Source: Photobacterium halotolerans DSM 18316 (lineage in GTDB: Bacteria; Pseudomonadota; Gammaproteobacteria; Enterobacterales; Vibrionaceae). Taken from it: a stretch of DNA of 64,000 bases. The DNA is taken from positions 62,001-126,000 of the forward strand of contig NZ_AULG01000013.1 in assembly GCF_000425165.1 (NCBI RefSeq), in the 5' to 3' direction. A program made the position numbers and the translations under genes. The notes beneath the pieces are model-generated. The model ran no database searches. It was not told the origin of the DNA and worked only from the letters and a program-made list of their open reading frames with translations. Below, piece by piece: positions 28,192-48,629 of the stretch (its first letter is position 1; every line of letters starts with the position of its first letter).

Positions 28192-28220
28192 CAGTGAATC
28201 AGTCAAAGATAGCATTCAGA

Positions 28221-28247
28221 AAGGCAGCGGAAACGCTGCTTTTTTTA
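28221..28247 (+). terminator. Terminator after the EamA transporter gene
   Basis: AAGGCAGCG-GAAA-CGCTGCTTT hairpin with a GNRA-type loop and a T-run. Confidence 0.9.
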
Positions 28248-28259
28248 TCAGTAGTGCAC

Positions 28260-28659
28260 AGTTATTGCTGTTGATTGCTGATAGTCAAATAAATTTGAAT
28301 TAAAAACTTCACCAAAGAGAACTCAGTTGCGCAGAAAGATCCGATGATGAATTAATTTTGATGTCATTGTTTTGATGATGATCAAAATCCATCCGAGAAA
28401 ATCAAAGGTTATATTCCATATAGGGATAAAATTGATTCTAACTCATTGAACATAAAATGCTTAGTGTGACTATTTCCACAAAAAACACTTAAATAAAAGA
28501 GAAATATAGAATAATAAATTTTTAAAACAATCACTTATAGTGAGATTTCTGACTATAGATAATTCTATAGGCACTTTTTTGCATATTGAGTATTGAAGTT
28601 GTAAATAAAGATGTTAAAGTTTCTCAAAATGTTAATAAGGCAATTTTGAAGGAATGAAA
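28260..28659. promoter_or_regulatory. AT-rich regulatory region ahead of the phenazine cluster
   Basis: About 400 AT-rich bases without a gene, the only sizeable gap before a 16-kb co-directional gene run. It carries three palindromes: TTTTGAT-GATG-ATCAAAA (28370-28387), TCACT-TAT-AGTGA (28531-28543) and CTATAG-N6-CTATAG (28553-28570). They are candidate operators for the cluster; which protein binds is unknown. Confidence 0.55.
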
Positions 28660-29049
28660 ATGGTTAATAAAAACGCACCAGCATCATTAGCTAACCTACA
28701 TTTGATATATGTGTCTGATGTCGAGCGTTCAACAGATTTATATAAAGAGCTTTTTAATGCTGAACCTGTTTTCAGTAGCCCACGTTATGTCGCGTTTCCT
28801 ACTTCTGAATCCGGGAGTGCATTATTTGCACTGTGGTCGGGCGGAGCCGTACCTGATCCTGAAATCCAGAGATATAGTGAAATCGGAATCATGCTAAAAA
28901 CTAATGATGATGTAAACCTTAAGTTTGAAACGTTAAAAGAACATCCAAGTTTATCTATCGTTAAAGAACCTTATGATGAAGTATTTGGTCGAACTTTTGT
29001 TGTAAAAGATCCTGATGGACACTTAATTCGTATCAGTCCACTCGATTAA
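28660..29049 (+). CDS. ehpR: EhpR-like phenazine-binding resistance protein
   Basis: A 129-residue VOC/glyoxalase-bleomycin-resistance fold protein. It has LIYVSDVERSTDLYKELF at the start and RTFVVKDPDGHLIRISPLD at the end; a metal-binding enzyme triad is not evident. It resembles EhpR of Pantoea agglomerans Eh1087, which binds griseoluteic acid and protects the producer. It is the first gene of the cluster, as expected for self-resistance. The start at 28660 is chosen because AAGGA is too close to the earlier ATG (28654). It could be another VOC protein, but the context strongly favours EhpR. Confidence 0.82.
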   Translation: MVNKNAPASLANLHLIYVSDVERSTDLYKELFNAEPVFSSPRYVAFPTSESGSALFALWSGGAVPDPEIQRYSEIGIMLKTNDDVNLKFETLKEHPSLSIVKEPYDEVFGRTFVVKDPDGHLIRISPLD

Positions 29050-29060
29050 TCATCTTAATC

Positions 29061-29104
29061 TGGGTATCAGTTGAATTACTCAACATTGAGCCTTCTGGTA
29101 CCCA
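29061..29104 (+). promoter_or_regulatory. Possible hairpin between ehpR and phzB
   Basis: The outer arms TGGGTA/TACCCA enclose an inner GTTGA-ATTAC-TCAAC stem, followed by an AT-rich stretch with a CTTTTCTTTT tract. It could attenuate transcription between the resistance gene and the biosynthetic genes, or be chance. Confidence 0.3.
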
Positions 29105-29183
29105 ATTATTAAAATTCTTTTCTTTTAGCTATCATCATTGATGTATGGGCGCTATTTTTTACTCTAAAAAGTGAATTTTTATT

Positions 29184-29651
29184 ATGAATGTTGAAGAAAA
29201 TACAATACGCGAAACAAACCGTGAAGTTGTCAGGAAGTATTTAGAATATACAAAAGGAAAATTGCGATTAGAACGACATAAATTGTATGCAGACGATGCA
29301 CAAGGAGGGCTTTGGACGACTGAGACTGGTCAACCGATTATCATTCGTGGAATTGAAAGTTTGGAGCGTCATGCACATTGGTCTCTACAATGTTTTCCCG
29401 ATTGGGAGTGGTATAACATTGAAATTTATACAACGGACAATCCAAATCATATCTGGGTAGAATGTGATGGCAGAGGCATCATTCGTTTTCCGGGGTATCC
29501 AGAGAAATATTATGAGAATCACTTTATTCATTCGTTTGAATTACATGATGGGTTGATTGTCAGAAATCGAGAGTTTATGAACCCAATCATGCAGTTAAAA
29601 GCGTTAGATATCAGTGTTCCGAAAATAAAAAGAGAAGGTATACCTGCCTAA
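29184..29651 (+). CDS. phzB: Phenazine biosynthesis protein PhzA/PhzB
   Basis: A 155-residue SnoaL/NTF2-fold protein that promotes condensation of two 6-amino-5-oxo-cyclohex-2-ene-1-carboxylate molecules to the tricyclic phenazine precursor. Typical blocks are NREVVRKYLEYTKGKLRLERHKLYA, HWSLQCFPDWEWYN and HFIHSFELHDG. There is a single copy, as in the Eh1087 cluster, rather than the phzA-phzB pair of pseudomonads. No strong Shine-Dalgarno site is seen before the ATG. Confidence 0.93.
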   Translation: MNVEENTIRETNREVVRKYLEYTKGKLRLERHKLYADDAQGGLWTTETGQPIIIRGIESLERHAHWSLQCFPDWEWYNIEIYTTDNPNHIWVECDGRGIIRFPGYPEKYYENHFIHSFELHDGLIVRNREFMNPIMQLKALDISVPKIKREGIPA

Positions 29652-29748
29652 TAATTTAATATTTATTTAAATGCCGAGAAGATAAATTTAACGTTCATGA
29701 ATATCATGCTTGATGCATTCAAGAAAATGGAGTTAAAAAGGATTTTCA

Positions 29749-30378
29749 ATGTATAGGACTCTTAAGTCAGAACCATATAATACTAACGATTTGATCCTCC
29801 CTTCTAATCAAGTTTTGAATTGGGATATTAATAAAAAAAGTTGCGCGCTTCTCGTACATGATATGCAAAGATATTTTGTGAATTCATTACCGGAAGAGAC
29901 TGCAGAAAATTTAGTGACTGCAACTGAAAGAATCATGCATTGGGCGAGAAAAAATAACATCCCAGTTATCTATAGTGCGCAACCAGGGAGAATGTCACTG
30001 GAACAGCGTGGATTACTTGCTGACCTTTGGGGACCCGGCATGCGGACCTGTGAGGAAGACCGTCGGGTGATTAATGAACTCACTCCACAGTCTGACGATA
30101 TCGTATTAACGAAGTGGCGTTATAGTGCATTCTTTAATTCCGAATTAGAAGAAATACTTTCAGCGCGCGGTTGTGATTCATTAATGATTACGGGCCTGTA
30201 TGCATCGATAGGTATTCAGGCGACAGCCATTGATGCATTTACACGGGATATTCGTCCAATTGTTATTGCTGATGCAACGGCTGATTTTACAAGAATAAGT
30301 CATCAGCAAGCTTTGAATTACATGTCAGACACGTGCGCAAAAGTCATATCAAAACTTGAGTTAGATAATTATGAGTAG
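29749..30378 (+). CDS. phzD: Isochorismatase-family phenazine enzyme PhzD
   Basis: A 209-residue hydrolase that converts 2-amino-2-desoxyisochorismate to trans-2,3-dihydro-3-hydroxyanthranilate (DHHA). The catalytic aspartate is in LLVHDMQRYFV and the lysine in VLTKWRYSAF. The canonical cysteine of isochorismatases is replaced within GLYASIGIQ, as in known PhzD proteins (GVYAHVG). Length matches PhzD. AAAGGATTTTCA precedes the ATG. The gene end overlaps phzE by 8 bases. Confidence 0.95.
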   Translation: MYRTLKSEPYNTNDLILPSNQVLNWDINKKSCALLVHDMQRYFVNSLPEETAENLVTATERIMHWARKNNIPVIYSAQPGRMSLEQRGLLADLWGPGMRTCEEDRRVINELTPQSDDIVLTKWRYSAFFNSELEEILSARGCDSLMITGLYASIGIQATAIDAFTRDIRPIVIADATADFTRISHQQALNYMSDTCAKVISKLELDNYE

Positions 30379-32302
30379 TCTGCTATCTTCAATTATTTCA
30401 AATCCAGAAAAACCATTTGCTATTATTTATCGTCCCACAATAGACGCTGGAATGATTAACCTATTTCAGTGCAGTGTTGATAAACATATGGTAATTAATG
30501 AAGCTATAGAACAGACACAATTAAAATCAGATAAAGGCCTTTTATTACTGCCTTTCAGACAAGTCATAGAGAATGATTATAATGCGATAGACGATGAAAT
30601 GCCCGTGCTGAGTTTGGCAATTGAGGTATCTGAAAAAATTCCTGTACATGAGTTTATTCATTCCATAACAGATTATTCAGTTAACACAAAGCATGAACAT
30701 TTTAATTTAAACGATCAAGAATATAGTCGCCGGGTTCGTCATTTGATTGACAATGAAATCGGACAAGGTGCAGGGTCAAACTTTGTATTGCAACGAAAAC
30801 TTCATGCAACCATTGATGAATATGAACCATCAAAGTTGTTCAGCTTGTTTCGAAATTTATTAAAAACAGAAAGTTCAGCTTATTGGATTTTCTTGATTCA
30901 AACAGGTGAGCAATCGTTTATTGGAGCATCTCCTGAACTACACGCATCTTTAAATAATGGTGAAGTGATGATGAATCCAATTAGTGGTACCTATGCTTAC
31001 CCATCTGATGGAGCGATGGATGAATCAATTCTGAGTTTTCTTTCATGTCAGAAAGAAATCGGAGAGTTATCCATGGTTGTAGATGAAGAACTAAAAATGA
31101 TGTCTAGCCTCTGTGAATCGGGTGGACAAGTGAGTGCCCTGAAATTAAAACAACTGAGTCGCGTAGCGCATACAGAGTATATTCTGAGTGGTCAAAGTGA
31201 AGCGAGTATTGCTAAAGTCTTGAAAGAGACGTTGCCTGCACCAACCGTAACAGGCAGCCCAGTCCAAAATGCTTGTAATGTGATTTCGCGTTATGAGCCT
31301 GAAGGACGCCGTTATTACAGCGGAGTTGTGGCATTCGTTGAGAAGCACGGTGAATCTACAGCGCTGGATTCTGCGATCCTCATTCGTACGGCTGAAATCG
31401 GTCAGCAAGGTGAAGTAGAAATCACAGCAGGGGCGACCATTGTTAGAGATTCAATTCCGGTTAATGAAACCAACGAAACTCGCAGTAAAGCAGCTTCTTT
31501 GTATCATGCAATGTTTGGTGCAGAACAACGTTCGGGAGTCAAACAAGGACGGAACTCACCAGATAAGCAAGCAACTTTGCTGAATGATATCCCGGGGGTT
31601 CAGGAGCTATTAGCACGGCGAAGCACAGAAAATTCGAATTTCTGGCGAACTGAACCCAATAAACGAAATCGGCAGGATGACTGTTATCTGGGCAAACAGG
31701 TTTTAATCATCGACGGTAACGATACATTCACATCAATGTTAAAGACGTTGTTCACCTCTGCTGGCGCTATTGCGACAGTTGTCAAAGTGGCAGAGGAGAT
31801 TGATTTTACTTCCTATGACCTGGTGCTGGCAGGGCCTGGACCCGGAAATCCAGAAGATAAATCGGATAAACGCGTCTTTTTAATGCGGAAACTGATCAGA
31901 AGATTAATTGAAGCAGAACACCCATTTTTTGCTGTTTGTCTGAGTCATCAATTATTGGCTCAAGAGCTTGGGTTACCAATCATTCGTCTTAATCCGCCAA
32001 ACCAAGGATTACAGAAAGCCATCACTTTGGGTAACCAAAAAGAACTTGTTGGATTTTACAATACATTTTGTGTTACGGCAGATGATATGACAATCCTCAA
32101 AATGAAAGAAAGAGATATCGACTTATTTTTAGATGAAAAAACACATCAAATATATGCGATCCAAAGCAGTTGTTTTGCATCAGTACAATTTCATTTGGAA
32201 TCATTTTTAACGGTTAATGGCCCACAACTTCTCGATTATTTTGTGAAGCCTCTCTTGAATTATCAGTATTTTAAGGAAGCAGAAGTATGCGCAGTCATAT
32301 AA
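30371..32302 (+). CDS. phzE: 2-amino-2-desoxyisochorismate synthase PhzE
   Basis: A 643-residue fusion that aminates chorismate to ADIC, the entry step of phenazine synthesis. Residues about 100-395 are the chorismate-using anthranilate-synthase-I-like domain (GASPELHASL, MNPISGTYAYPSDG, EITAGATIVRDS). Residues about 435-635 are the class I glutamine amidotransferase with the nucleophile in FFAVCLSHQLLAQELGLP and the His-Glu pair in QFHLES. Length fits PhzE. It is coupled to phzD and phzF by overlaps. Confidence 0.96.
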   Translation: MSSLLSSIISNPEKPFAIIYRPTIDAGMINLFQCSVDKHMVINEAIEQTQLKSDKGLLLLPFRQVIENDYNAIDDEMPVLSLAIEVSEKIPVHEFIHSITDYSVNTKHEHFNLNDQEYSRRVRHLIDNEIGQGAGSNFVLQRKLHATIDEYEPSKLFSLFRNLLKTESSAYWIFLIQTGEQSFIGASPELHASLNNGEVMMNPISGTYAYPSDGAMDESILSFLSCQKEIGELSMVVDEELKMMSSLCESGGQVSALKLKQLSRVAHTEYILSGQSEASIAKVLKETLPAPTVTGSPVQNACNVISRYEPEGRRYYSGVVAFVEKHGESTALDSAILIRTAEIGQQGEVEITAGATIVRDSIPVNETNETRSKAASLYHAMFGAEQRSGVKQGRNSPDKQATLLNDIPGVQELLARRSTENSNFWRTEPNKRNRQDDCYLGKQVLIIDGNDTFTSMLKTLFTSAGAIATVVKVAEEIDFTSYDLVLAGPGPGNPEDKSDKRVFLMRKLIRRLIEAEHPFFAVCLSHQLLAQELGLPIIRLNPPNQGLQKAITLGNQKELVGFYNTFCVTADDMTILKMKERDIDLFLDEKTHQIYAIQSSCFASVQFHLESFLTVNGPQLLDYFVKPLLNYQYFKEAEVCAVI

Positions 32303-33138
32303 AATTAGAATATGGTGTGTTTAATGCTTTTACTCACTCGCCAATCTCAGGAAATCCTGTGGCAGTTTTTTATGAGTCTGAGCAATTATCAGCATCATTC
32401 ATGCAGTCTATTGCCAGTCAACTACAGTTATCTGAAACGACTTTTCTCCATACGAGTCATGATAAAAAAAATGTGGAAGTTCGCATTTTTACACCTGTGA
32501 ATGAATTACCATTTGCTGGTCATCCGTTAATGGGTACTGCTGCTGCATATGCAAGAAAGTACAACGTTAATGATTTTGTATTTCATACAAAAAAGGGTCC
32601 TGCATCAGTCTCAGTCAAACATATCTCTGATGATGTGAGCGAAGTGGAAATGACAGTTCCGCTTGCAACATCACAACCTTTTTCTGAGAAAGATAAATTG
32701 CTAAAAGCATTAGGTTTGGAAGGGTCTGAGTTACCCATCGAAATGTATGATGCAGGTGCCAGACATGTTTTGGTTTCAGTGAGTGATAAATCTGTGTTAC
32801 ATCAGATCAAACCCAATCATACCGCGCTTGAAGCATTCGAAAATATGGCAATTAACTGTTTTTGCTGGGATGGAGATAGCATTGAAAATCGAATGTTTTC
32901 ACCAGCGTATGGCGTCAAAGAAGATGCTGGTACGGGTTCTGTGGTATGGCCAATAGCACAACATCTGGTTCAATATGGACAGTTTTCACTCAATAAAAAA
33001 CTGATGATACTGCAAGGGACACAACTGAGCCGGCAATCTGAAATGTATGGTGAAATTAAGTCTGATCAAGGTATCGGAACCCATGCAATATTATCAGGAA
33101 ATGTTTATCACTTCTCGGATTGTCAAGCCAGAATTTAA
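32287..33138 (+). CDS. phzF: DHHA isomerase PhzF
   Basis: A 283-residue PhzF that isomerises DHHA to the aminoketone that dimerises to phenazine. The catalytic glutamate is in LQLSETTFLH, the conserved LPFAGHPLMGTA follows and the second-half acid loop is SPAYGVKEDAGTGSVVWP. It overlaps phzE by 16 bases; AAGGAAGCAGAAGT lies upstream. The two PhzF lobes are intact. Confidence 0.95.
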   Translation: MRSHIKLEYGVFNAFTHSPISGNPVAVFYESEQLSASFMQSIASQLQLSETTFLHTSHDKKNVEVRIFTPVNELPFAGHPLMGTAAAYARKYNVNDFVFHTKKGPASVSVKHISDDVSEVEMTVPLATSQPFSEKDKLLKALGLEGSELPIEMYDAGARHVLVSVSDKSVLHQIKPNHTALEAFENMAINCFCWDGDSIENRMFSPAYGVKEDAGTGSVVWPIAQHLVQYGQFSLNKKLMILQGTQLSRQSEMYGEIKSDQGIGTHAILSGNVYHFSDCQARI

Positions 33139-33158
33139 TTGAGTGAAAGAGATAGAAA

Positions 33159-33788
33159 ATGAGTAGACTTGAGTCATTAACTGGGCGATTGAATTTACCA
33201 TTTCCACAATATGATACACCACCGGATTCACCTAAGGAAATCATAAATCAATGGATCACCCGAGCCCGATCCGGTGATGTCAGAGAACCTGACGCTTATA
33301 CACTTGCGACATGTAATTCTGCCGGTGAAATAACAATGAGAACCATGTTTCCGATCACTATAGACGGCGAAGTCATGTTATTTGCAACGCATAGTTGTAG
33401 TCGAAAAGGGAGTGATATCAGAGAAAGTGGTATCGCGAGTGCACATATTTACTGGCGTGAGATCGGTCGTCAGTTAAGTGTTTCCGGTACAATGAGTTTA
33501 GCGGATGAATCGATCGCTGATTCGGCATGGAATGCACGTGATGCTGCTTATGATCCTGTTTCTGTTGTGTCTCATCAAAGTGAAAAATTTAATGATTTTG
33601 ATTCATTTTATAGAGATGTTAAAGGATATGAAAATCAAGGGAAACAACCAAAGCCTGAACGTTTTGTTGTTTATGCGTTGAAAATTAATCATTGTGAATT
33701 TTGGTCGGCAAACCAAGACCGGATTCATCAAAGATTAGCTTATACATTGACTGAAAAAGGATGGTACTGTGAAAGATTACAGCCATGA
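33159..33788 (+). CDS. phzG: FMN-dependent oxidase PhzG
   Basis: A 209-residue protein of the pyridoxamine-5'-phosphate oxidase fold. It helps oxidise the reduced tricycle toward phenazine-1,6-dicarboxylate or phenazine-1-carboxylate. Recognisable parts are NQWITRARSGDVREPDAYTL, ATHSCSRKGSDIRESG (FMN-binding region) and YALKINHCEFW near the C-terminus. It overlaps the next gene by 20 bases. Confidence 0.93.
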   Translation: MSRLESLTGRLNLPFPQYDTPPDSPKEIINQWITRARSGDVREPDAYTLATCNSAGEITMRTMFPITIDGEVMLFATHSCSRKGSDIRESGIASAHIYWREIGRQLSVSGTMSLADESIADSAWNARDAAYDPVSVVSHQSEKFNDFDSFYRDVKGYENQGKQPKPERFVVYALKINHCEFWSANQDRIHQRLAYTLTEKGWYCERLQP

Positions 33789-34860
33789 TCTGAACGAAAT
33801 TGAAAACTTAAATAAACCTGATCTTTTTATTCAGTCAATAATTAAATGGCATTTTTCTGAAGAAACAGGGTCAGAGTTCTGGTTGAAAATACGTTCTGAG
33901 TTGGAGTTTGATCCAATAAAGGAAGTTAACACTTTCAGCGACTTGAAGAAGTTTCCTGATTTTTCAGAACGTTTAAGAACGGTTCCTGTCGAGCAATTAA
34001 TCCCACGTGGATTGAAAGATGATAAGAACTTTTCAGTTTATGAAAGTGGAGGAACCACTGGGGCACCTAAGTATGTGATAGCCTATGATGCATGGATAAA
34101 TAATCTTGTAGATTGGCGAATGTCCTCCTATAAAAATCGTCCGGGTCGCCCAACAGGGAATACATTGGCCGCGGTCCCTACTGGTCCACATATTGTTGGT
34201 GCTATTAATAAAATTCGGGCCAAAGCATTAGGTGGCGTTTTTTTTTCGATCGATATTGATCCCCGTTGGGTAAAACAGTTAATCTCGAAAAATGAAATGC
34301 AGTCAGTTCGGAGTTATTCATCTCATTTAGTTGAACAGATCAGAAATACGCTGTTGACTCAACAGATCCGCTTTCTTGTCACCACGCCACCTATTTTACG
34401 AGCCCTGCTCAAAGATGAATCTTTGGTAGAACATATGCGAAAAACGCTTGTTCAGATTACTTTAGGTGGGACAGAAATTGATCTGGATGAAGTTAAGTTT
34501 ATTGCAACAGAAATTTTGCCTGAATGTGAATTCAGTGCGAGCTATGGAAGCACTTCAGCATTAGGTGTTTCTCGCTCTTCACTGATTCATCGTGAGAGCT
34601 TATATGTGGAATACGACAACTATAGTCCGTTTATTACGTATGAAGTTGTCAATGCTGCAACACAAGAGCCTGTCAATTATGGTCAGCGGGGACAAGTTAT
34701 TGTGTCTCATCTGAGCAGATATGCGTTTTATCCCCGTGTGATTGAACGTGATACCGCGATCAGATTAGAAGGAAAACAGGGCCAAGTTGGCGATAGGGTG
34801 GCTAATATCTCACCCCTGCGTGTTGTTGAGGGTAATCAGGTGATTGAGGGTGTCTACTGA
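33769..34860 (+). CDS. ehpF: ANL-superfamily aryl-carboxylate adenylating enzyme, EhpF-like
   Basis: A 363-residue adenylating enzyme, short for the ANL superfamily. The ATP P-loop is YESGGTTGAPKYV (about residue 88), followed by FSASYGSTSALGVS, the usual A5-like region. It corresponds to EhpF of P. agglomerans, proposed to activate one carboxyl of phenazine-1,6-dicarboxylate so that the partner reductase can make an aldehyde. The GTG start is preceded by AAAAAGGATGGTACT and lies inside phzG. LuxE-like acyl-protein synthetase is an alternative name for the same activity type. Confidence 0.85.
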   Translation: MKDYSHDLNEIENLNKPDLFIQSIIKWHFSEETGSEFWLKIRSELEFDPIKEVNTFSDLKKFPDFSERLRTVPVEQLIPRGLKDDKNFSVYESGGTTGAPKYVIAYDAWINNLVDWRMSSYKNRPGRPTGNTLAAVPTGPHIVGAINKIRAKALGGVFFSIDIDPRWVKQLISKNEMQSVRSYSSHLVEQIRNTLLTQQIRFLVTTPPILRALLKDESLVEHMRKTLVQITLGGTEIDLDEVKFIATEILPECEFSASYGSTSALGVSRSSLIHRESLYVEYDNYSPFITYEVVNAATQEPVNYGQRGQVIVSHLSRYAFYPRVIERDTAIRLEGKQGQVGDRVANISPLRVVEGNQVIEGVY

Positions 34861-36242
34861 TGGGCACAGAAACGCTGTCTTTATCCGAAATGCCAATCAT
34901 TAAAGCGATCACTCCTGTTAGCCAAGACAATATCGCACGTTACGTGACTGTTTCTGATATTACAGGTAAAGATTTCGCTCATTTAATTCAATTACCCAAA
35001 ATGTTTATCAGTCATGCAGTGAATAAACTTCGCAAAGGTAAACATCTAACGGATGATGAGCGAAAAATCGCCTTAAAAAAAGCAGGTCAGCTTTTTCATT
35101 CAGGCACAGTTGGCGGGTTCAATCCGGACGATTACGTCAATCAAGTTGTTTCTGTCACCGGCTTACCAGAAGAGGTTGTTAAGAAGGCTCTTCAAAAGAT
35201 CGGTGATGCCACCTCGCATGCTTTTCGTGATTCAGCATTGGGTTTCGCGAAAGGCGTCCCAGATGCTTATTCAGATCAGGTGAAACAAAGAGGTTGTGCG
35301 CAGGTTGTTCGTAAAGGGGAAGTATTAGCTGTCATCGCGCCAGGAAATGGAACAGGCGTTCATGCGCTTTGGCCGCAGGCTATCGCATTGGGATATCGCG
35401 TTGTGTTAAGACCATCAGAACGTGAGCCATGGACAGCGCACCGTTTAGTCCAAGCTTTGACAGAGTCTGGGCTTGCTGATTATGTTGTCATGTTGCCAAC
35501 CGCTCATGACGGCGTTGAGGAAATCATTGAAGCGGCAGATCTGAGTATCGTGTATGGCGGAGAAGACACCGTCACTCGGTATGAAAACCGTTCTGATGTT
35601 CTGGTGCAAGGGCCGGGAAGATCCAAAATGGTGATTGGTAATGATTATCCTCAGCAAGATGCTTTTGAACTTGTTTTTGAATCAGTCCTTGGATTAGGGG
35701 GCGCGGCATGTGTCTGCACGAGCAGTGTCTTCATTGAAGGTGATGCCGAAGCGTTTGCCCGTGCTTTTCAGGATTATGTGTACGATCGGCTGCAGGATCC
35801 ACACGAGAGAGAGCGTTATCTTCCTCAATTGTCATCTCAGCGTTATGACTGGTGGATACAGCAAGTTGAGCAGTATCAGGATTTTATATTCAGTCGGCCG
35901 GAAGTGTTTTCTCTAAAATCGGGTACCAGACAAGTCATGCCATTGATCATGCTGGCTGATTCTACTGATCAACCCATCGTCCAACTTGAATTACCTGTTG
36001 CATCGGTAACATTTGTGCCATTTCAACATCAGGCGTGTTTATCATTTTTAGCACCAGCACTTGTTGTCTCGGTTGCGACAAAGAAAGTGGCTTTGATTCA
36101 GTCGATCAGTGAGATCCCGGAGATTAGAAACCTATACATTGGTCAGGTTCCTACAATCTGGATGCAAGCCCACGTCCCACATGATGGGTATATTGCTGAG
36201 TTTTTAACCCGGTCAAGGGGATATCGAGTCGATTTTAGTTGA
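34860..36242 (+). CDS. LuxC/aldehyde-dehydrogenase-like acyl reductase
   Basis: A 460-residue NAD(P)H-dependent reductase of the LuxC/acyl-CoA reductase group. Features are VLAVIAPGNGTGVHALWPQA (nucleotide site), VVLRPSEREPWTAHRL and the catalytic-cysteine loop LGLGGAACVCTSS. Its start overlaps the EhpF-like gene stop (TGATG). With that enzyme it would reduce a phenazine carboxylate to the aldehyde, on the way to griseoluteic acid. It is in the position of ehpG in the known cluster. Confidence 0.85.
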   Translation: MGTETLSLSEMPIIKAITPVSQDNIARYVTVSDITGKDFAHLIQLPKMFISHAVNKLRKGKHLTDDERKIALKKAGQLFHSGTVGGFNPDDYVNQVVSVTGLPEEVVKKALQKIGDATSHAFRDSALGFAKGVPDAYSDQVKQRGCAQVVRKGEVLAVIAPGNGTGVHALWPQAIALGYRVVLRPSEREPWTAHRLVQALTESGLADYVVMLPTAHDGVEEIIEAADLSIVYGGEDTVTRYENRSDVLVQGPGRSKMVIGNDYPQQDAFELVFESVLGLGGAACVCTSSVFIEGDAEAFARAFQDYVYDRLQDPHERERYLPQLSSQRYDWWIQQVEQYQDFIFSRPEVFSLKSGTRQVMPLIMLADSTDQPIVQLELPVASVTFVPFQHQACLSFLAPALVVSVATKKVALIQSISEIPEIRNLYIGQVPTIWMQAHVPHDGYIAEFLTRSRGYRVDFS

Positions 36243-36312
36243 GCGGCAAGTTTTATTCGATGCTTCTTATCAGAAGTTTAATTTAAATTGAGCATTTAGT
36301 AGCGAATGATTT

Positions 36313-37002
36313 ATGAATAACCCAACAATAAATGAATTTGATAAAGCGGATTTCCAAGGTGTTTACGAAGGTAAAACATTAATAAGCAGTGCAGAAATAA
36401 CTGCCGTCCCTTGGGATATTGGTCGACCACAGCCAGTAGTTCAAGATATTCTGGAAAAAGGTCAGAAAAACAGGTTATTGGATGTTGGTTGTGGATTGGG
36501 GCTGAACGCAAAGCAAGCGAATGATTTGGGATATCAGGTCACTGCGATTGATAGCGCATCAAAAGCGATTGAACATTGTTTAAATGTTCATCAGAAGACC
36601 GGCATTCAGTTTCAATTAGCGAATGCTTGCGATACTGGACTCAATGAAAAATTTGATATTATCTTAGATTCAGCTGTTTATCACTCAATTCCATCGAGTG
36701 ACAGAAGTGCCTATATGAAAGAAATGCGGCGCTTGGCGAATGATGACGCTGAATTTCATCTAATCACCTTTGCGCCATCACAACATGGTATGCCGAAACC
36801 TTTAGCAATTGAATTGTCAGAGATTATACAATTGGCCGAAATAAATGATTGGGCGATCCAATCTGTTGAACGGGTGACATATAAAGGAAATGCAGGAGCT
36901 ATTTCTGATTTCCAAAAGAAAAAGAACCTTAACATACTCACGGATGAAAATGGATTAACTTGTTTACCAAGCTGGCACGTTATTCTCAAAGTGAAAATCT
37001 GA
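36313..37002 (+). CDS. SAM-dependent methyltransferase
   Basis: A 229-residue class I methyltransferase. SAM motif I is LLDVGCGLGLNAKQANDLGY (about residues 56-75), with the acidic strand end VTAIDSAS and a post-motif FDIILDSAVYHSI. It probably O-methylates the hydroxyphenazine to give the methoxy group of griseoluteic-type products; this is inferred from context. The Shine-Dalgarno sequence is weak. The genes on both sides run the same way with gaps of 70 and 24 bases. Confidence 0.85.
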   Translation: MNNPTINEFDKADFQGVYEGKTLISSAEITAVPWDIGRPQPVVQDILEKGQKNRLLDVGCGLGLNAKQANDLGYQVTAIDSASKAIEHCLNVHQKTGIQFQLANACDTGLNEKFDIILDSAVYHSIPSSDRSAYMKEMRRLANDDAEFHLITFAPSQHGMPKPLAIELSEIIQLAEINDWAIQSVERVTYKGNAGAISDFQKKKNLNILTDENGLTCLPSWHVILKVKI

Positions 37003-37026
37003 AAATAACTGAACTAGGATCTGAAT

Positions 37027-38457
37027 ATGAGTCAGAATAAAATGGCCTTTGGTGGTCTGTGTCTTGGATTTTTCATCGTAATGATGGATACAACCACAGT
37101 TCCATTGATTTATACATCATTAATTAAAGACTTTGGTGTAACCCCTGCTATGGCTGCGTGGGTGAATAACAGCTATTTAATTTCTTATGCAGCATTTCTG
37201 CTATTAGGTGGTCGCCTTGGCGATGCATACAATCGCAAACTTCTGGTATCGAGCGCTTTACTCCTTCTCGCATTTGGCGCTTTACTCAGTGGTTATGGAG
37301 AAACTTTAAATCAGGTCATTATCGGCCGTGCCATCATGGGCGTTGGTGCTGGCTTATTAACACCTCAAAGTATGGCTTTTATTTCCATTATCTTTGCTGA
37401 AGGTGGCAGGGGAAAAGCATTTGGTATCTGGGGCGCTGTGGCAGGGATAGCGACGGCAACAGGCCCGGTTGTCACGCAATTCTTCTTACAGGTGTCTGAC
37501 TGGCGATGGGTTATGTGGATTAATATACCCGTCGCCATGATTGGACTGTTGGTGACATCGATCTATTTACCAAAGACACAAGGGAATGGCCTGAAGTTGA
37601 AAGAGCTCGTGTTTAACGGACTATTCAGCTTTTCTATTGCCATTGTTATTCTCAGTTTACAACTGATTCATGAGAGCGCTGAAAACATCTATAAAGTTCT
37701 GGCATTTTTAGCGCTTGGTATTTTAGGTACATTCTGGTTATTAAGACATGAGATTTCTCATCGGTCCGCATATGTTTTACCTTTTGAAATCTGGAAAGAT
37801 ATAAAATTTATGAGAACGTGTCTTATCTCAGGTTTATTAGGTTTAGGACTGACGTCTCTTTATTTGCCGCTGGCTTATCTCATTGAGATAAGAATGAATT
37901 TTGGTCCTGTTTTTATCAGTATCATTATGGTAACAATCGCGTTGGCGAATGCAGTCGTCGGGCCAGTTGCAGGCAGTCTGTCGGATAAAAAAGAACCTGA
38001 AGTAATTGTTCGTTATGGTCTCTTATCGCTTGCTTTCTCTGCTTTGCTCTTAGGGGGGGTTGGTCTCACGATGGCTGGCGGATTGAATGCATTTGTCATG
38101 ACGGTGATCGCAATGATATTTGCAGGAATAGGAACGGGCTTAGCTTTTGCTCCTTTGGCAAACCTCGCTTTAAGAGATATATCACCTCAGGTTATTGGTC
38201 GTGCCGCTGCATTTTTTAATAGTACGCGTCAATTACTGAGTGCACTTGGGAGCGTCATTGTTGCATTGCTTTTTGATTATATGGTTCGAAATAATCAGTT
38301 ATTTGGCTTTACCGAAGAAAACGCTTTACAGCCTTATTCTCCAGTCGTCGCTTATGCAGCTTTCGCATGTTTGCTGGTCATCGCTGGCTGTGTTGGCCTG
38401 GGTGCTTGGTTATCTCGAGAGCATACAAAAACGGAAAATGAAACGGTGCAAAGTTAA
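37027..38457 (+). CDS. MFS drug exporter, DHA2 (14-helix) type
   Basis: A 476-residue major facilitator with about 14 helices, of the EmrB/QacA group. Motif A is GGRLGDAYNRKLL after helix 2; a GIATATGPVVTQF stretch resembles motif C. As the only transporter in the phenazine cluster, it most likely exports the product and adds resistance together with the EhpR-like protein. Confidence 0.92.
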   Translation: MSQNKMAFGGLCLGFFIVMMDTTTVPLIYTSLIKDFGVTPAMAAWVNNSYLISYAAFLLLGGRLGDAYNRKLLVSSALLLLAFGALLSGYGETLNQVIIGRAIMGVGAGLLTPQSMAFISIIFAEGGRGKAFGIWGAVAGIATATGPVVTQFFLQVSDWRWVMWINIPVAMIGLLVTSIYLPKTQGNGLKLKELVFNGLFSFSIAIVILSLQLIHESAENIYKVLAFLALGILGTFWLLRHEISHRSAYVLPFEIWKDIKFMRTCLISGLLGLGLTSLYLPLAYLIEIRMNFGPVFISIIMVTIALANAVVGPVAGSLSDKKEPEVIVRYGLLSLAFSALLLGGVGLTMAGGLNAFVMTVIAMIFAGIGTGLAFAPLANLALRDISPQVIGRAAAFFNSTRQLLSALGSVIVALLFDYMVRNNQLFGFTEENALQPYSPVVAYAAFACLLVIAGCVGLGAWLSREHTKTENETVQS

Positions 38458-38479
38458 GAATTATTAAGGGACAAATACT

Positions 38480-39277
38480 ATGAATATCTGGGTTGTGAGT
38501 GGTTGCTCCAGCGGACTTGGTCGTGCATGGACTGAATCTATTATCAATGAACGAAAGGAAATCGTGATCGGAATTACTCGCTCTGAAGCATCAGCAGAAG
38601 AGATGGTTTCACTTTATTCGGAACGATTTATCCCTTGTATTGCTGATGTCCGTGATGAAAAAGGTCTGAAAGAACAGCTGACGGCATTAGCCCATCAGGT
38701 TGGTACACCAAATCGCGTGGTGACGTGCGCTGGCTATGCACAATTCGGGACACTGGAAGATTTATCTAATCAGCAACTGAGAGAGCAGTTCGAAACGAAC
38801 GTTGAAGGAACGCTGAACGTCATCAGACCGTTACTGCCATTGATGCGGACTTTGGAAGAAGCAAGAATTTTGTTGGTTTCCAGTATGAGTGGTGTTGCTT
38901 GCTGGCCACTTTTGGGTGCTTATCAGATGAGTAAGTATGCCATTGAGGCATTAGGTGAAACCTTGAGACTCGAACTTGAAGATACGCCTATCCAGGTTGG
39001 CATTATCGAGCCGGGTCCGCACAAAACTGGCTGGGCAACTTTTTCCGCAAAAAGGCAGAAGGTGAGTGATTTCTATGACGAAGAAGCACTGAAAAGTCGT
39101 GTAAGCTGTGGCTTTCAAGTAGAAGACCCGACAGCAAGTTTACCTTTTTTCTGGCAGATGTTTGATCAAACCAAAATGCCGCTGAGAATTGCAACTTCAA
39201 AACCATTTGTCGAAATGATTTGTGAAAAATCAATGGAAAATATGCAGTTATTGAGAGGTTCCTTTGAGCAATTATAA
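38480..39277 (+). CDS. Short-chain dehydrogenase/reductase
   Basis: A 265-residue classical SDR. The cofactor glycine motif is VVSGCSSGLGRAW (TGxxxGxG type), the mid-chain motif is CAGYAQFG and the catalytic triad Ser/Tyr/Lys is in VSSMSG and YQMSK. The PGPHKTGW loop follows. In this cluster it could reduce the formyl group to the hydroxymethyl of griseoluteic acid. TTAAGGGACAAATACT precedes the ATG. Confidence 0.88.
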   Translation: MNIWVVSGCSSGLGRAWTESIINERKEIVIGITRSEASAEEMVSLYSERFIPCIADVRDEKGLKEQLTALAHQVGTPNRVVTCAGYAQFGTLEDLSNQQLREQFETNVEGTLNVIRPLLPLMRTLEEARILLVSSMSGVACWPLLGAYQMSKYAIEALGETLRLELEDTPIQVGIIEPGPHKTGWATFSAKRQKVSDFYDEEALKSRVSCGFQVEDPTASLPFFWQMFDQTKMPLRIATSKPFVEMICEKSMENMQLLRGSFEQL

Positions 39278-40424
39278 AGCTGTTCCGCATAAAAATTTGA
39301 GCGCTAATATTGATGCATTGATTGCATCCTATGTGCTTGAAGATGGTTCGGAAATATTATCAAACCAGACGATTCAAGTGCTCCAGAATAGCTCGTTACT
39401 GAGAATTCTTGACGAGAGCCCATTAAATGGCCCAGGCCTGTTGGGTGATGTGGTTTCTGTTTGTCGGTCCCTTGGCAAGATAGATGCCTCACTTGGCTGG
39501 CTCGTTGGTGTTTCGAATTCTTCATGGTCAATGAAAGCAAACTTTGATCTTCCTGAGACTGTTCTTGCGAACATGAAGGAGAATTCGATGCTGTCAATGG
39601 TGCTGGGGCGTCCTGGTACTCTGGTTCCTGACGAAAATGGCACAGGATGGCGCTTAAATGGGGAGTGGAAGTATGCATCTGGTTATCCATTGTCATCCTA
39701 CTTTTTCGGTTTGGCTGCAACAAACGAGGGGATAGTGAAGGTTGTTGTTATGCCGTCTCAGGCACTCAAGATCACTTCACCCTGGCATTCAACCGGATTA
39801 CTTGGCACACAAAGTGTCACGATTCAAGCGTGTGATGTCATGATCCCTGAATCATTCACTGTGAATTATCAGCCAATATTGCAAGGCAGTTTGGATGGCC
39901 GATTTGAAGGGCGCTCGTACGCGGGGTATTTCACCGGCGTGTTGATGAACTGCCTGGTTGGCACAATTTTAGGTGCAACCGAATCTGCGCTTGATTATGT
40001 GGTAGCCAATTTGCAACGGCCAATCGGTGGCAGCACTTATGCTTCAATGCGAGATTCGGGTCCTGTCAGGTACGAATTAGGTCGTTTGAAAAGCAATTTA
40101 GATCTACTGATACGTGCGGCAGAGTATAACGCCAGCATCGTTGATCATGCCGTTGATCAGGTATCGGCTCCTTTATCGGATAACGACCGGGTTGAGATTA
40201 GAGCCAGGGCAACTCAGGTGATGAAAGGCTGTACTGAAATCGTGCAATCCTTGTTGTGGATTTATGGTTCATCCGGTTTGGATACCAGCTGCCCGCTAGA
40301 GAAAATCTGGCGTGATGTGAATGTCGGTGCTCGACATGGCGGATTTTCAAAGTTCATACCAGAGGAAATGATTGGCCTAACATTGCTCAATGCTGATCCG
40401 GTTTCACTGTCAAGAATGTTTTAA
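39264..40424 (+). CDS. Acyl-CoA-dehydrogenase-fold flavin monooxygenase
   Basis: A 386-residue protein of the acyl-CoA dehydrogenase/class D flavin monooxygenase superfamily. Visible are SLGKIDASLGWLVGV, RLNGEWKYASGYPLSSYFF, the TGLLGTQSVTIQACDV strand typical of the middle beta domain, and a C-terminal helical bundle with SSGLDTSCPLEKIWRDV. It is a candidate phenazine hydroxylase supplying the oxygen that is then methylated. The start appears to be TTG at 39264, preceded by GAGAGGTTCC and overlapping the SDR gene by 14 bases; no suitable ATG is available. Confidence 0.82.
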   Translation: MSNYKAVPHKNLSANIDALIASYVLEDGSEILSNQTIQVLQNSSLLRILDESPLNGPGLLGDVVSVCRSLGKIDASLGWLVGVSNSSWSMKANFDLPETVLANMKENSMLSMVLGRPGTLVPDENGTGWRLNGEWKYASGYPLSSYFFGLAATNEGIVKVVVMPSQALKITSPWHSTGLLGTQSVTIQACDVMIPESFTVNYQPILQGSLDGRFEGRSYAGYFTGVLMNCLVGTILGATESALDYVVANLQRPIGGSTYASMRDSGPVRYELGRLKSNLDLLIRAAEYNASIVDHAVDQVSAPLSDNDRVEIRARATQVMKGCTEIVQSLLWIYGSSGLDTSCPLEKIWRDVNVGARHGGFSKFIPEEMIGLTLLNADPVSLSRMF

Positions 40425-40495
40425 TCGTTCATCTCTCATAGAGTATTGAGTCTAATTAATGATGTCTGTATGAGAGATATTAATATGGAAATGAT

Positions 40496-41992
40496 ATGAA
40501 CATCACCTCAAAATCTTGCCATGTAAATACAAGTCTTACATGTCTGAATGAAAAATTAGAATGGTTACTTTTAACACAACCGGATAAAGAAGCGTTGATC
40601 TGTGGCCAGGTAACTTTCAGTTATCAGCAGGTCATCCGAACAGCACTAGATATTTCAGAGCAATTCGCAGAAGCAGGTCTTGATAAAGGTCATCGATTAG
40701 CACTGGATGCGCCAAGATCAAGTGAGCTTTACTCTATTATTATTGCATGTCTGCTTTCTGGTATTTCATTTATTTATGTGCCAAGAAGTTTAGAACCTGA
40801 AAGTAAAATTAAATTTGCAAGAGATACATCTTGTGCAGCGATATTCTCTCTGACGTCTGAGTTTGATTTGTTGGATCAAGTTTCGATGGGGGCGGGATTG
40901 TTATCGATATTTCCTGAACGAACAATCCCAAGAAATCCTCATTCTCGTTCGGGTACTGAGATTTATTGTGTCAGAACTTCAGGGACAACCGGCGAACCCA
41001 AAATTGTCCCAATCTATGCACGGCAGCTTACATCTTTTCTCAAGAATGTCGATATAGAATTCGACATACCAGTGAAGAGAAGATGGTTATGGTTACATGA
41101 TTTGTCATTTGATTTATCAATATGGGAAATCATGGGGTGTTTGTTTTATGGTGGCGGACTGGTGATTCTCAGTGAGGAAGAAAAAAGAGAGCCAAGTAGC
41201 ATATGGCGTGTCCTCGAAGAGAACCATGTCAACCAAATCATGGTAACACCTTCGGAATTCCGTTTTATTTTTAGTGAGGTTCGGCCTCAGGATGTGACAA
41301 AGCTGTCACTTGAAGAAATACTCTTTTGTGGTGAAAAGCTTTCTGTGGAAACAGTTAGGCCATTTTTTTCTGAATTTAATGGCCAACAAGTGAAGTTAGT
41401 GAATACATACGGTCCCTCGGAAGCAACAATATTTTGCTCAGCACATACTGTGACTGAGCAAGATATTCTGAACGGTTCAATACCGATCGGAAAAGCATTT
41501 CACGACATGATTTTTTCTCTTGGAAGTCAGGAGAACGAACACGTCGGAGAGCTTTTATTACAAGGTGGTCAGGTTTTTGAAGGTTATGAAGGGCGACCTC
41601 TGGAGAATAATATATATAAGACGGGTGATATTTGCTCAGTTGGTTATGATGATGTGTTTCATTATATCAAGCGGACAGGCGGATTTGTGAAGGTGAATGG
41701 TTTTCGGATCGATTTATTAGAAATTGAAGAGTATTTACAGTCAATTCCTGGTGTTGGCGAAGCCGTTGTGCTGGTTGAAAATAAATCAGAGGACTTATCC
41801 ATTTTATGTGCTTGTATTAATGTGATGTTTGATAGTTTATTGACGACCAGAGACTTAAGGACATTCTGTGCGAAGCTATCTCCTTGGCTGCGACCTGCGC
41901 GCTATTTGATGATTCCACAAAATGATTGGCCAATGAATATTCGAGGAAAAACAAATAAGGCAGAATTAGAAAAGAGGTTATATGAACAGTAA
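40496..41992 (+). CDS. Amino-acid adenylation enzyme (DltA/NRPS A-domain-like)
   Basis: A 498-residue stand-alone adenylation protein. Core motifs are RTSGTTGEPKIVPI (A3), LHDLSFDLSIWE (A4), NTYGPSEATIF (A5), YKTGDICS (A7) and RTGGFVKVNGFRIDLLEIEE (A8). The C-terminal catalytic lysine is probably in NIRGKTNKAEL. With the carrier protein encoded immediately after, it should load an amino acid; in the Ehp pathway this would be D-alanine. It overlaps the carrier gene by 11 bases. Confidence 0.88.
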   Translation: MNITSKSCHVNTSLTCLNEKLEWLLLTQPDKEALICGQVTFSYQQVIRTALDISEQFAEAGLDKGHRLALDAPRSSELYSIIIACLLSGISFIYVPRSLEPESKIKFARDTSCAAIFSLTSEFDLLDQVSMGAGLLSIFPERTIPRNPHSRSGTEIYCVRTSGTTGEPKIVPIYARQLTSFLKNVDIEFDIPVKRRWLWLHDLSFDLSIWEIMGCLFYGGGLVILSEEEKREPSSIWRVLEENHVNQIMVTPSEFRFIFSEVRPQDVTKLSLEEILFCGEKLSVETVRPFFSEFNGQQVKLVNTYGPSEATIFCSAHTVTEQDILNGSIPIGKAFHDMIFSLGSQENEHVGELLLQGGQVFEGYEGRPLENNIYKTGDICSVGYDDVFHYIKRTGGFVKVNGFRIDLLEIEEYLQSIPGVGEAVVLVENKSEDLSILCACINVMFDSLLTTRDLRTFCAKLSPWLRPARYLMIPQNDWPMNIRGKTNKAELEKRLYEQ

Positions 41993-42209
41993 TCACGAGA
42001 TGCTAGAAATATTACTATGTGAAATCAAGGTTGTCCTCGGAGAAAATGATATCAGAGTTAGTGATAATCTGATTGAGATGGGTGGCAACTCCATTATTGC
42101 CATGAAAATATCTGAGACGTTAAAAAAAAGAGATAAAATTTTAGTGAATGTCACACAATTACTTGGCGCTAAAATATCAGATGTCGAATTATCAAAATTA
42201 AAAGGGTAG
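41982..42209 (+). CDS. Acyl/peptidyl carrier protein
   Basis: A 75-residue carrier protein with the phosphopantetheine serine in EMGGNSIIAMKI (about residue 37). It is acidic at the front and short, like DltC-type carriers. It sits between the adenylation enzyme (overlap) and the KAS III-like protein (9-base gap), so it is the likely shuttle for the activated amino acid. Confidence 0.9.
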   Translation: MNSNHEMLEILLCEIKVVLGENDIRVSDNLIEMGGNSIIAMKISETLKKRDKILVNVTQLLGAKISDVELSKLKG

Positions 42210-42218
42210 ATTGATTTC

Positions 42219-43241
42219 ATGAAAATAATCAGTATGGGCAGCCAGCTATCAGTGTCAGAACACTTGGAAAGGGTCGATCACCCAAATCAAATGCAATTAA
42301 ATACACTGAAATTTGCCGGGTACGCTCAATTTTGGAAAGAACCGGGAAGTGTCAGAGAAATGGCTGGTATTGCAGCAAAAAAAGCTTTATTAAAAGCACG
42401 GATTCGTCCTGAAGATATTGGCTTTATCGTTGCTGGTCAATCGGGTGTACCTGACTATATTGGAATTGATTTTGCGTGCCAGGTCGGAGCGGAATTATCT
42501 TGTAAAGATATTCGAACAATTAATATTGTTGAGGGGTGTAATAGTGGCATTAGTGTCTGGGAACATGCTGCGTCTCTCTTGAAAAAACAATCTGCAGATA
42601 AAGTTGGCCTTGTGGTGGTTGCTCAGCGTATTAGCGAAGCGCATCAAGACAGATTTGGTTTAATGAATGCCATCTTGAGTGATGGTGCGGCTGTCGCATT
42701 GGTTGCGTCTGAGCATTGGGAGATGGATGGGGCTGCTTTACACTATCTCGGTGCTGAAGATATATCAGATTGTCGCTTTGTGGACATGATGCGTGTTGAG
42801 CATGGTGGTGGTCTGCAACCATATGTCACGGAAGCGTTTGATGCGCGTCATGACAAATTGGGACGTGAACGTATCGCAGATATTTATAATTTCGACGCAG
42901 ATGCTTTAAATGATTTTTTGGCCCTGCGTGCTGAGAATAATATCAATATTATTAATAAGGTTATCTCGAAAAGTAAAAAGAAAATAGAAAACCCGTTTCT
43001 TATTCAAACATTGGAAGGTCAGCAAAGCATTGAAAGTTTATGTGCGAAATTAGATATACCGACAGATAGAAGTAATTTGGAATTGTTATCTGAAGTAGGA
43101 CATGCAGGTTGTGCTGATTTACTAATATCGTTGGATGTTTTGGTGGATAGAGAGATGATAAAGCCAGGTGATGATATTATCATGAGTACCATTTCAACAG
43201 GTTTAAAATGGGGAGCTGCTATTTTTCATTATCAAAAATGA
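42219..43241 (+). CDS. KAS III-like acyltransferase
   Basis: A 340-residue thiolase-fold protein related to 3-oxoacyl-ACP synthase III. The nucleophilic cysteine is in NIVEGCNSGISVWEHA (about residue 110). A late GHAGCADLLISLD corresponds to the conserved asparagine region of FabH, here altered, and the FabH HQAN motif is not recognisable. Condensing-enzyme residues are thus changed, as in CerJ-like enzymes that make esters. It likely transfers the carrier-bound amino acid to the phenazine hydroxymethyl. Confidence 0.82.
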   Translation: MKIISMGSQLSVSEHLERVDHPNQMQLNTLKFAGYAQFWKEPGSVREMAGIAAKKALLKARIRPEDIGFIVAGQSGVPDYIGIDFACQVGAELSCKDIRTINIVEGCNSGISVWEHAASLLKKQSADKVGLVVVAQRISEAHQDRFGLMNAILSDGAAVALVASEHWEMDGAALHYLGAEDISDCRFVDMMRVEHGGGLQPYVTEAFDARHDKLGRERIADIYNFDADALNDFLALRAENNINIINKVISKSKKKIENPFLIQTLEGQQSIESLCAKLDIPTDRSNLELLSEVGHAGCADLLISLDVLVDREMIKPGDDIIMSTISTGLKWGAAIFHYQK

Positions 43242-43393
43242 TTTGAAAATTCTGTTCTATCTATTACTTTTTTTATCAAGTTCAACCCACTTTCGATAAG
43301 TCTATGCTGAAAGTGTCTGTGTCTATGGATGAGATGATGTTTTGTATTGGCCTTGAAACGTCATTTTTAAAGAATGAATTGAATCGGTTTATT

Positions 43394-44467
43394 ATGGAAA
43401 ATATTCTTGAAGTAAATGATATTGAATGCAGTGGATTAGATTTTATATCCCCTTCTTTGTTGAAGTCTCAATATCCGATATCAGCAAATGAAAAGTTCGA
43501 AATTAATAAGTTTAGAAAAACTATTTGTGACATCATTGATGGCAATGATCCCAGATTACTTGTGATTTGTGGGCCATGTTCTATTCATGATCCTTATGCT
43601 GCTATTGAGTATGCACAGCGATTGAAGCGGATATCTGAAAAAGTTGAAGGTCAAATCTTTATTGTAATGCGGGCTTATCTTGAAAAACCGCGTACTGTCT
43701 CCGGATGGAAGGGATTGATCAACGATCCCAATATGGATGGGAGTTGCAATATTGAACAAGGGTTAAAAGTATCGAGAGATTTTTTAACTCGTCTTGTTCA
43801 ACTTGGTATACCGTTAGCAACGGAAGTGCTTGATCCAAACATTTCACACTATTTCAATGATATTTTTAGCTGGGCAGCAGTTGGTGCCAGAACTGCTGAG
43901 TCTCAAATACATCGTGAGCTTGCATCAGGTCTATCAATGCCCGTTGGCTATAAAAACTCAACCAGTGGCAGTGTCTTACCTGCAATTCATGCCATACAGT
44001 CATCGTCATTATCGCATAGCCATATTGGTGTGAATGAAGACGGAAAAGTTTGCTTGATGAGAACGCCAGGAAACTCACATGGTCACATTATTCTTCGTGG
44101 CGGAAAGTCACCCAATTATAGCCATGAGGATGTAATAAGACATGTGTCGGAATTGAAGAAACTCGGTGTCAGACCGAACGTTGTAGTTGATTGTAGCCAT
44201 GGGAATTCAGAGAAAGATTTTCGTCGTCAGTCCATTGTCGTCGATTCAGTGATCATTCAAATTATGCAGGGAAATCGCCATATTGTCGGATTAATGCTTG
44301 AGAGTCACCTTTACGAAGGGAATCAACCTATTCTTGAACAACGTGAGCAAATGAAATATGGCGTTTCTATTACGGATAGCTGCGTTGGTTGGCAAGAAAC
44401 GGAGAAGATCTTGTTGGATATTCATCAAAAAATGAAGAAAGTGAACTCGGGAAAGACAGGCGAATGA
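43394..44467 (+). CDS. Type I DAHP synthase (AroF/G/H family)
   Basis: A 357-residue 3-deoxy-D-arabino-heptulosonate-7-phosphate synthase, first step of the shikimate pathway. Motifs: DPRLLVICGPCSIHDP, MRAYLEKPRTVSGWKGLIND, AVGARTAESQIHRELASGL and VVDCSHGNSEKDF. The frame opens at 43304, but the start at MENILEVND (43394) gives the family length and aligns with E. coli AroF. No start has a clear Shine-Dalgarno site. As the last gene of the phenazine cluster it would raise chorismate supply. Pseudomonad PhzC, by contrast, is a type II enzyme. Confidence 0.92.
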   Translation: MENILEVNDIECSGLDFISPSLLKSQYPISANEKFEINKFRKTICDIIDGNDPRLLVICGPCSIHDPYAAIEYAQRLKRISEKVEGQIFIVMRAYLEKPRTVSGWKGLINDPNMDGSCNIEQGLKVSRDFLTRLVQLGIPLATEVLDPNISHYFNDIFSWAAVGARTAESQIHRELASGLSMPVGYKNSTSGSVLPAIHAIQSSSLSHSHIGVNEDGKVCLMRTPGNSHGHIILRGGKSPNYSHEDVIRHVSELKKLGVRPNVVVDCSHGNSEKDFRRQSIVVDSVIIQIMQGNRHIVGLMLESHLYEGNQPILEQREQMKYGVSITDSCVGWQETEKILLDIHQKMKKVNSGKTGE

Positions 44468-44539
44468 TACAACGCATGTATGATCCCAGATGATTTCGAG
44501 CTGACCTTCGATTAAAAGTGGATGCATGAATGAATTATT

Positions 44540-44567
44540 TCGGTGTTTGGCATAAACCGAACACCGA
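44540..44567 (+). terminator. Hairpin after the phenazine cluster, possible terminator
   Basis: TCGGTGTTTGG-CATAAA-CCGAACACCGA forms an 11-bp stem with one G-U pair. There is no strong T-run on either side, so termination is plausible but not certain. Confidence 0.5.
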
Positions 44568-44570
44568 CTA

Positions 44571-44960: not shown

Positions 44961-44993
44961 GTTGCAGCAGGGCGGGAGCATCCTTTACTTATA

Positions 44994-48468: not shown

Positions 48469-48477
48469 TTTTCATTT

Positions 48478-48591: not shown

Positions 48592-48629
48592 TCCGAGTAG
48601 TGTAGTCCATAACAGGCATGATTTTCGGA

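Follow-up and report, generated by a model that had tools for sequence, protein, structure and literature searches.

The stretch of DNA examined here (the window) comprises 64,000 nucleotides of the Photobacterium halotolerans DSM 18316 genome (contig NZ_AULG01000013.1, positions 62,001 to 126,000). On its plus strand, from 28654 to 44467, it carries a run of 16 co-directional open reading frames (ORFs), overlapping or closely spaced, whose products resemble those of the ehp operon for the phenazine D-alanylgriseoluteic acid (AGA) of Pantoea agglomerans (Table 1). A sequence-only reading had described 16 such genes in a Vibrionaceae-like chromosome, and both points are borne out, the first by the ORF listing and by Pfam, which backs the domain classes of all 16 products, and the second by the genome itself, a Photobacterium near P. 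arenosum. In operon order, the Pfam classes are glyoxalase fold, PHZA_PHZB, isochorismatase, chorismate-binding plus GATase, PhzF, PhzG-type oxidase, AMP-binding, Aldedh/LuxC, methyltransferase, major facilitator superfamily (MFS), short-chain dehydrogenase/reductase (SDR), acyl-CoA-dehydrogenase fold, AMP-binding, carrier, ketoacyl-acyl carrier protein synthase III (KAS III) C-terminal, and 3-deoxy-D-arabino-heptulosonate 7-phosphate (DAHP) synthase. One earlier label, "flavin monooxygenase," was loose, the fold being of the acyl-CoA-dehydrogenase type (HsaA-like); the other domain classes stand.

In local blastp searches, 15 of the 16 proteins find a colinear best match in the AGA cluster of P. 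agglomerans CFSAN047154 (plasmid record NZ_CP034476.1, 211 kb), at 44.6 to 75.7% amino acid identity. The strain is listed among those carrying the AGA cluster in PMC11350110. DAHP synthase is the sole product without a counterpart there. The phzB-D-E-F-G core for phenazine-1,6-dicarboxylate is complete, with PDB matches for phzB, phzF, and phzD; the EhpF and EhpG pair is present, and EhpF and EhpR match solved chains bearing those names. All seven tailoring and export genes that follow ehpG, from the methyltransferase to the KAS III-like gene, keep the Pantoea order. Similarity of the tailoring proteins to Ehp proteins, chosen beforehand as a test of the assignment, came to 45 to 66% in colinear order, with 63% for EhpF and 52% for EhpG, and the proposal of a complete Ehp-type cluster held up, its 15 colinear proteins spanning 45 to 76% identity.

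The arrangement is also close to that of the Pantoea ehp/AGA clusters (Eh1087; CFSAN047154): 14 of the 15 homologues, phzB through the KAS III-like gene, are ordered alike, and ehpR stands at the same end. In Pantoea, however, ehpR is inverted, whereas in the window it lies on the operon strand; phzC closes the window operon as an extra gene, and the DUF2165 gene of the Pantoea cluster is absent. The Pantoea cluster sits on a 211-kb plasmid and that of the window's genome on a 218.6-kb contig.

Table 1. Positions in the window, strand, identity to the Pantoea protein, and basis of assignment for the operon and adjoining features; all gene letters except F, R, G, and J were given by order in the operon
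Feature	Position	Strand	Identity (%)	Basis
Terminator-like hairpin with T-run, 3' of EamA gene	28226..28252	+		Hairpin search
AT-rich leader, presumed operon promoter region	28254..28653	+		Position and composition
ehpR, griseoluteic acid/AGA-binding resistance protein	28654..29049	+	55.7	PDB 3sk1 EhpR, E 3.3e-43
ehpA by order, phzA/B, single copy	29184..29651	+	75.7	PF03284, E 9e-73; PDB 3ff0 PhzB2
ehpB by order, phzD isochorismatase	29749..30378	+	60.7	PDB PhzD match
ehpC by order, phzE, 2-amino-2-desoxyisochorismate (ADIC) synthase	30371..32302	+	54.3	Pfam and Pantoea match
ehpD by order, phzF isomerase	32287..33138	+	59.8	PDB PhzF match
ehpE by order, phzG flavin oxidase	33159..33788	+	53.1	NF038138, E 1e-57, under the model's cut-off
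ehpF, ANL-fold enzyme acting on phenazine-1,6-dicarboxylate	33769..34860	+	63.4	PDB 3l2k/3hgu EhpF, E 8e-157, full length
ehpG, aldehyde dehydrogenase/LuxC-like reductase, EhpF partner	34860..36242	+	51.6	PF00171, PF05893
S-adenosylmethionine-dependent methyltransferase, presumed O-methylation	36313..37002	+	58.8	PF08241
ehpJ, MFS exporter	37027..38457	+	61.2	PF07690; TIGR00711 under cut-off
ehpK by order, SDR, presumed aldehyde to CH2OH reduction	38480..39277	+	66.4	PF00106; YxxxK present
ehpL by order, flavin-dependent hydroxylase, acyl-CoA-dehydrogenase fold	39264..40424	+	58.0	PF08028; HsaA-like under cut-off
ehpM by order, amino-acid adenylation enzyme	40496..41992	+	48.4	PF00501; DltA model, E 5e-44, under cut-off
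ehpN by order, carrier protein, GGNS attachment site	41982..42209	+	44.6	PF00550; attachment Ser present
ehpO by order, KAS III-like acyltransferase	42219..43241	+	57.2	
phzC, DAHP synthase	43304..44467	+		TIGR00034, E 1.9e-139, above cut-off
Hairpin without clear T-run, between phzC and rtcR remnant	44541..44566	+		By eye; similar one in P. arenosum
Broken rtcR remnant	44574..45016	-		tblastn with intact congener RtcR

The PhzF-like product carries the Glu, His, and Asp motifs and EhpG the Cys motif expected of such proteins. The true start of phzC may lie inside its ORF; the genome has five matches to DAHP synthase, phzC included. The run had been said to start right after a terminator, and a hairpin with a T-run is indeed present at 28226-28240, yet such hairpins are no commoner than in shuffled sequence (12 versus 11.6 in the scanned stretch), and the first ORF begins only at 28654, with 28260-28653 as AT-rich leader. 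Sigma-70-like promoter matches in the scanned stretch were likewise no better than chance (36 versus 45.6 in shuffles).

Related clusters

Of 60 genomes searched for EhpF, 2 contain it, one being the window's own and both belonging to the 36 genomes from this genus. The KAS III-like gene, with an E-value of 1e-60 or lower, occurs in 3 of 329 Vibrionaceae genomes, again including the window's own. A genome scan gave 96 places encoding an EhpF relative, the best 80 of which were examined over a fetched stretch beyond which genes would be missed. Among these 80 loci, the run from methyltransferase to KAS III-like gene is colinear in five (P. arenosum, Vibrio sp. Of7-15, Xenorhabdus szentirmaii, Facilibium subflavum, and a Bartonella queenslandensis contig), and the hydroxylase-to-KAS III genes lie upstream of the phz core in three (Aeromonas popoffii, Janthinobacterium, and Microbulbifer variabilis). 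The other 72 have EhpF, mostly EhpG, and sometimes phz-core or DAHP synthase genes, the rest of their products reaching at most 35% identity to window proteins.

When seven proteins from nine clusters are concatenated, with Microbulbifer excluded because part of its hydroxylase gene was cut off, the resulting tree joins the window to P. arenosum (support 100), places the Vibrio cluster next to this pair (80), and sets Pantoea and Bartonella apart as a pair of their own (100). In the Vibrio sp. Of7-15 cluster (L011), each of the 16 genes has a match and the order is kept, but DUF2165 separates the KAS III-like gene from phzC. The X. szentirmaii cluster (L012) shares with the window an ehpR on the operon strand, colinear F to O genes, and the start of a DAHP synthase gene at the stretch end; unlike the window, it contains DUF2165, and phzE and phzF were not found in the fetched stretch. 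The cluster of E. coli plasmid NZ_CP076707 has in common with the window an ehpR-like gene, phzB-G, ehpF, ehpG, the SDR gene, and phzC, but the window's methyltransferase, exporter, hydroxylase, carrier, and KAS III-like genes are unmatched in it at E 1e-5, and identity to the adenylation enzyme reaches only 24%. The Proteus mirabilis ICEPm2 operon (PMC11278526) resembles this E. coli cluster by gene order and length.

Two of the colinear loci have features of their own. The F. subflavum AGA-type cluster (L013) includes DUF2165 and runs off the contig end. That of the B. queenslandensis BqUM contig (L014) has a shortened phzE ORF (481 amino acids) and adjoining genes that by eye seem to encode a phosphopantetheinyl transferase and components of type IV secretion; it may represent contamination or a plasmid.

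Predicted product

From the homologies above, we infer a route in which PhzC would feed the shikimate pathway and EhpA to EhpE (PhzB, D, E, F, and G) would convert chorismate to phenazine-1,6-dicarboxylate. EhpF would then activate one carboxyl as the adenylate, which EhpG and the SDR would reduce through the aldehyde to CH2OH, and the flavin hydroxylase and methyltransferase would add a methoxy group to give griseoluteic acid. EhpM would activate the amino acid, for which D-alanine is the likeliest candidate, and load it onto the carrier EhpN, from which the KAS III-like EhpO would pass it to the hydroxymethyl group; EhpR would bind the product and EhpJ would export it. Two PPTase (phosphopantetheinyl transferase)-family matches in the genome could activate EhpN.

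Conserved residues in EhpR are consistent with such a product. The window's protein retains all five griseoluteic-acid-binding residues named in the ligand-binding passage of PMC3175449 (R42, Y43, W57, F109, and L128), as against one of the five in the EhpR-like protein of the E. coli plasmid cluster and four in that of M. variabilis. In this check, only two of the five positions were readable for Bartonella, and P. arenosum was entered twice.

EhpO has a KAS III fold, and its predicted model matches FabH and the acyltransferase ChlB3, but sequence alignments put Thr264 in place of the catalytic His and His295 in place of the Asn. These substitutions rest on the alignments and not on the geometry of the model (mean predicted local distance difference test score [pLDDT] of 74.7; residues 141-151 and 184-226 below 50).

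The adenylation enzyme EhpM is a relative of DltA rather than DltA itself, scoring 150.6 bits against the TIGR01734 cut-off of 559.85, a cut-off reached by none of 148 same-order genomes. The pair Cys301/Thr322 in its pocket is common to the window, Pantoea, P. arenosum, Vibrio, Facilibium, Bartonella, and Aeromonas but was not found in the Xenorhabdus, Microbulbifer, or Janthinobacterium enzymes. In DltA, according to PMC9338922, a conserved cysteine near the D-alanyl side chain participates in the choice between D and L forms. D-alanine is thus the likely substrate, since EhpM keeps the Cys/Thr pair of Pantoea.

It is possible, although unlikely, that the same griseoluteic acid core bears another amino acid or several, attached by EhpM, EhpN, and EhpO as a pelagiomicin- or phenaszentine-like ester. 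X. szentirmaii, with its colinear tailoring genes, is a reported producer of pelagiomicin B and phenaszentines (PMC11477647 and PMC10221052), and Leu236, Met278, and Leu299 of the pocket are common to it and the window where Pantoea differs. Its Gly301/Val322, however, departs from the window's Cys301/Thr322, which is the pair of AGA-cluster Pantoea. We hold as similarly tentative a joint reading, in which the attachment of mixed amino acids, or of a single one that is not D-alanine, would make the product a new aminoacyl-griseoluteic acid and EhpO would represent a rearranged active site for aminoacyl esters.

Less probable still is that the operon yields only a simpler phenazine, such as phenazine dicarboxylate or free griseoluteic acid, with the ester genes idle. 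The absence of DUF2165, a protein of unknown role, from the cluster counts for this; against it, the M, N, and O genes are open and constrained (dN/dS, the ratio of nonsynonymous to synonymous divergence, of 0.13 to 0.21), and the carrier serine is present. All dN/dS and dS values given here come from a simple counting method over the best aligned stretch.

Several observations weigh against the AGA-type reading. The product is predicted from genes, and at four of ten pocket positions the window's EhpM departs from that of Pantoea (236 L/F, 278 M/S, 299 L/V, and 330 I/V). Two aligned DltA-like enzymes from same-order genomes, both under the DltA cut-off, have Ile at position 301. We assume that the DltA cysteine corresponds to the position numbered 301. 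The published ehp cluster comprises 15 ORFs, ehpA-O, plus ehpR (PMC3175449), and the window accounts for 14 letters plus ehpR, leaving H or I over. Finally, DUF2165, which according to PMC11350110 lies downstream of the cluster in every representative of three genera, is absent from the window cluster, where 43241-43304 leaves no room for it, and whole-genome searches for it were empty but had no working positive control. We treat DUF2165 as associated and non-defining, as it lies outside the published ehpA-O plus ehpR set. With all this weighed, we consider it very probable that the ehp operon of this Photobacterium genome is complete and of the AGA type, and a Photobacterium AGA/ehp cluster that includes phzC, has ehpR in line, and lacks DUF2165 is well supported.

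Insertion site, history, and significance

The operon forms an AT-rich insertion of 16.3 kb between an EamA gene and rtcR. As had been noted from the letters, it is richer in AT than either side: GC content is 0.33 to 0.46 and third-position GC (GC3) 0.24 to 0.45 in the 16 cluster genes, versus 0.47 to 0.57 and 0.45 to 0.67 in the 10 flanking genes measured. The congener G035 provides the unoccupied site: homology to it stops at ~28253 and resumes at ~44572, the corresponding ends lie ~28 bases apart, and an intact 530-amino-acid RtcR and RtcB follow. No cluster gene occurs at the site in G063, which has a further deletion there, or in G062, where other genes occupy the place. P. arenosum has the same cluster at the same place, and just the last 20 RtcR residues were found in it.

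Horizontal transfer, as proposed earlier, is supported by the unoccupied site, base composition, and patchy distribution, but the acquisition was not recent. DNA identity to P. arenosum is 92.9% for 27100-44614 against 88.6 to 93.6% for other large blocks, and dS is 0.11 to 0.33 for the 16 cluster genes against 0.12 to 0.34 for seven flanking genes; a recent transfer is rejected because cluster and flanks are about equally diverged. All 16 genes look to be under purifying selection, with dN/dS of 0.06 to 0.29 compared with 0.02 to 0.12 in flanking genes. The similar divergence and low dN/dS therefore point to one insertion that predates the split of the two species and has been maintained by selection. 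A relic operon, silent or in decay, as the broken neighboring rtcR and rearrangement of the region among congeners might suggest, is very improbable given 16 ORFs open in the window and matched at full or nearly full length in P. arenosum under this constraint.

The run had also been said to end at insertion sequence (IS)/rtcR debris. The rtcR debris is real; the IS debris is not supported, as the eight flanking ORFs scanned, a scan that did not cover ORF-less fragments, include no transposase or integrase, and only a ~130-bp repeat (45572-45704) was found. Nor do 28236-28420 and 44441-44600 share direct or inverted words of at least 10 bases, and we rejected IS-borne transfer on these two grounds.

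The site is probably on chromosome 2, because the left neighbor EamA sits on a second contig, of 1.4 to 1.7 Mb, in G035, G062, and G063. The interval between EamA and PepSY genes is variable among congeners, with rtcR/rtcB and an MFS gene in G035 (L105) and two radical SAM genes in G062 (L104), suggesting an insertion hot spot. The neighborhood also contains an Aegerolysin-family gene just past the cluster (45790-46203, minus strand; PF06355, E 2.1e-38), with a homologous stretch in the same neighborhood of G062. The repeat at 45572-45704 resembles a miniature inverted-repeat transposable element, with 13 further genome matches at 74 to 82% identity and no transposase seen; another, of ~125 bases at 48476-48603, has several near-adjacent copies downstream of the PepSY gene in G035.

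The AGA-type compound class is already known: AGA is reported from marine Vibrio SANK 73794 (PMC3175449), and a table in PMC3225927 lists a Vibrio sp. as a source of griseoluteic acid and pelagiomicin C. Genes for such phenazines are rarely found in Vibrionaceae. P. halotolerans MELD1 is said to carry genes for an "antimicrobial compound like phenazine," with no further particulars. The main text of a genus-wide cluster survey that includes P. arenosum CAU 1568 (PMC9456166) lacks the word phenazine, and the excerpts of open-licence PubMed Central literature searched gave no link between griseoluteic acid and Photobacterium. An AGA/ehp cluster in Photobacterium is useful but no surprise. The complete genes in two Photobacterium species and one Vibrio constitute a genetic route to AGA-type chemistry, and the selection of the amino acid can readily be studied by comparing homologous clusters whose adenylation pockets differ.

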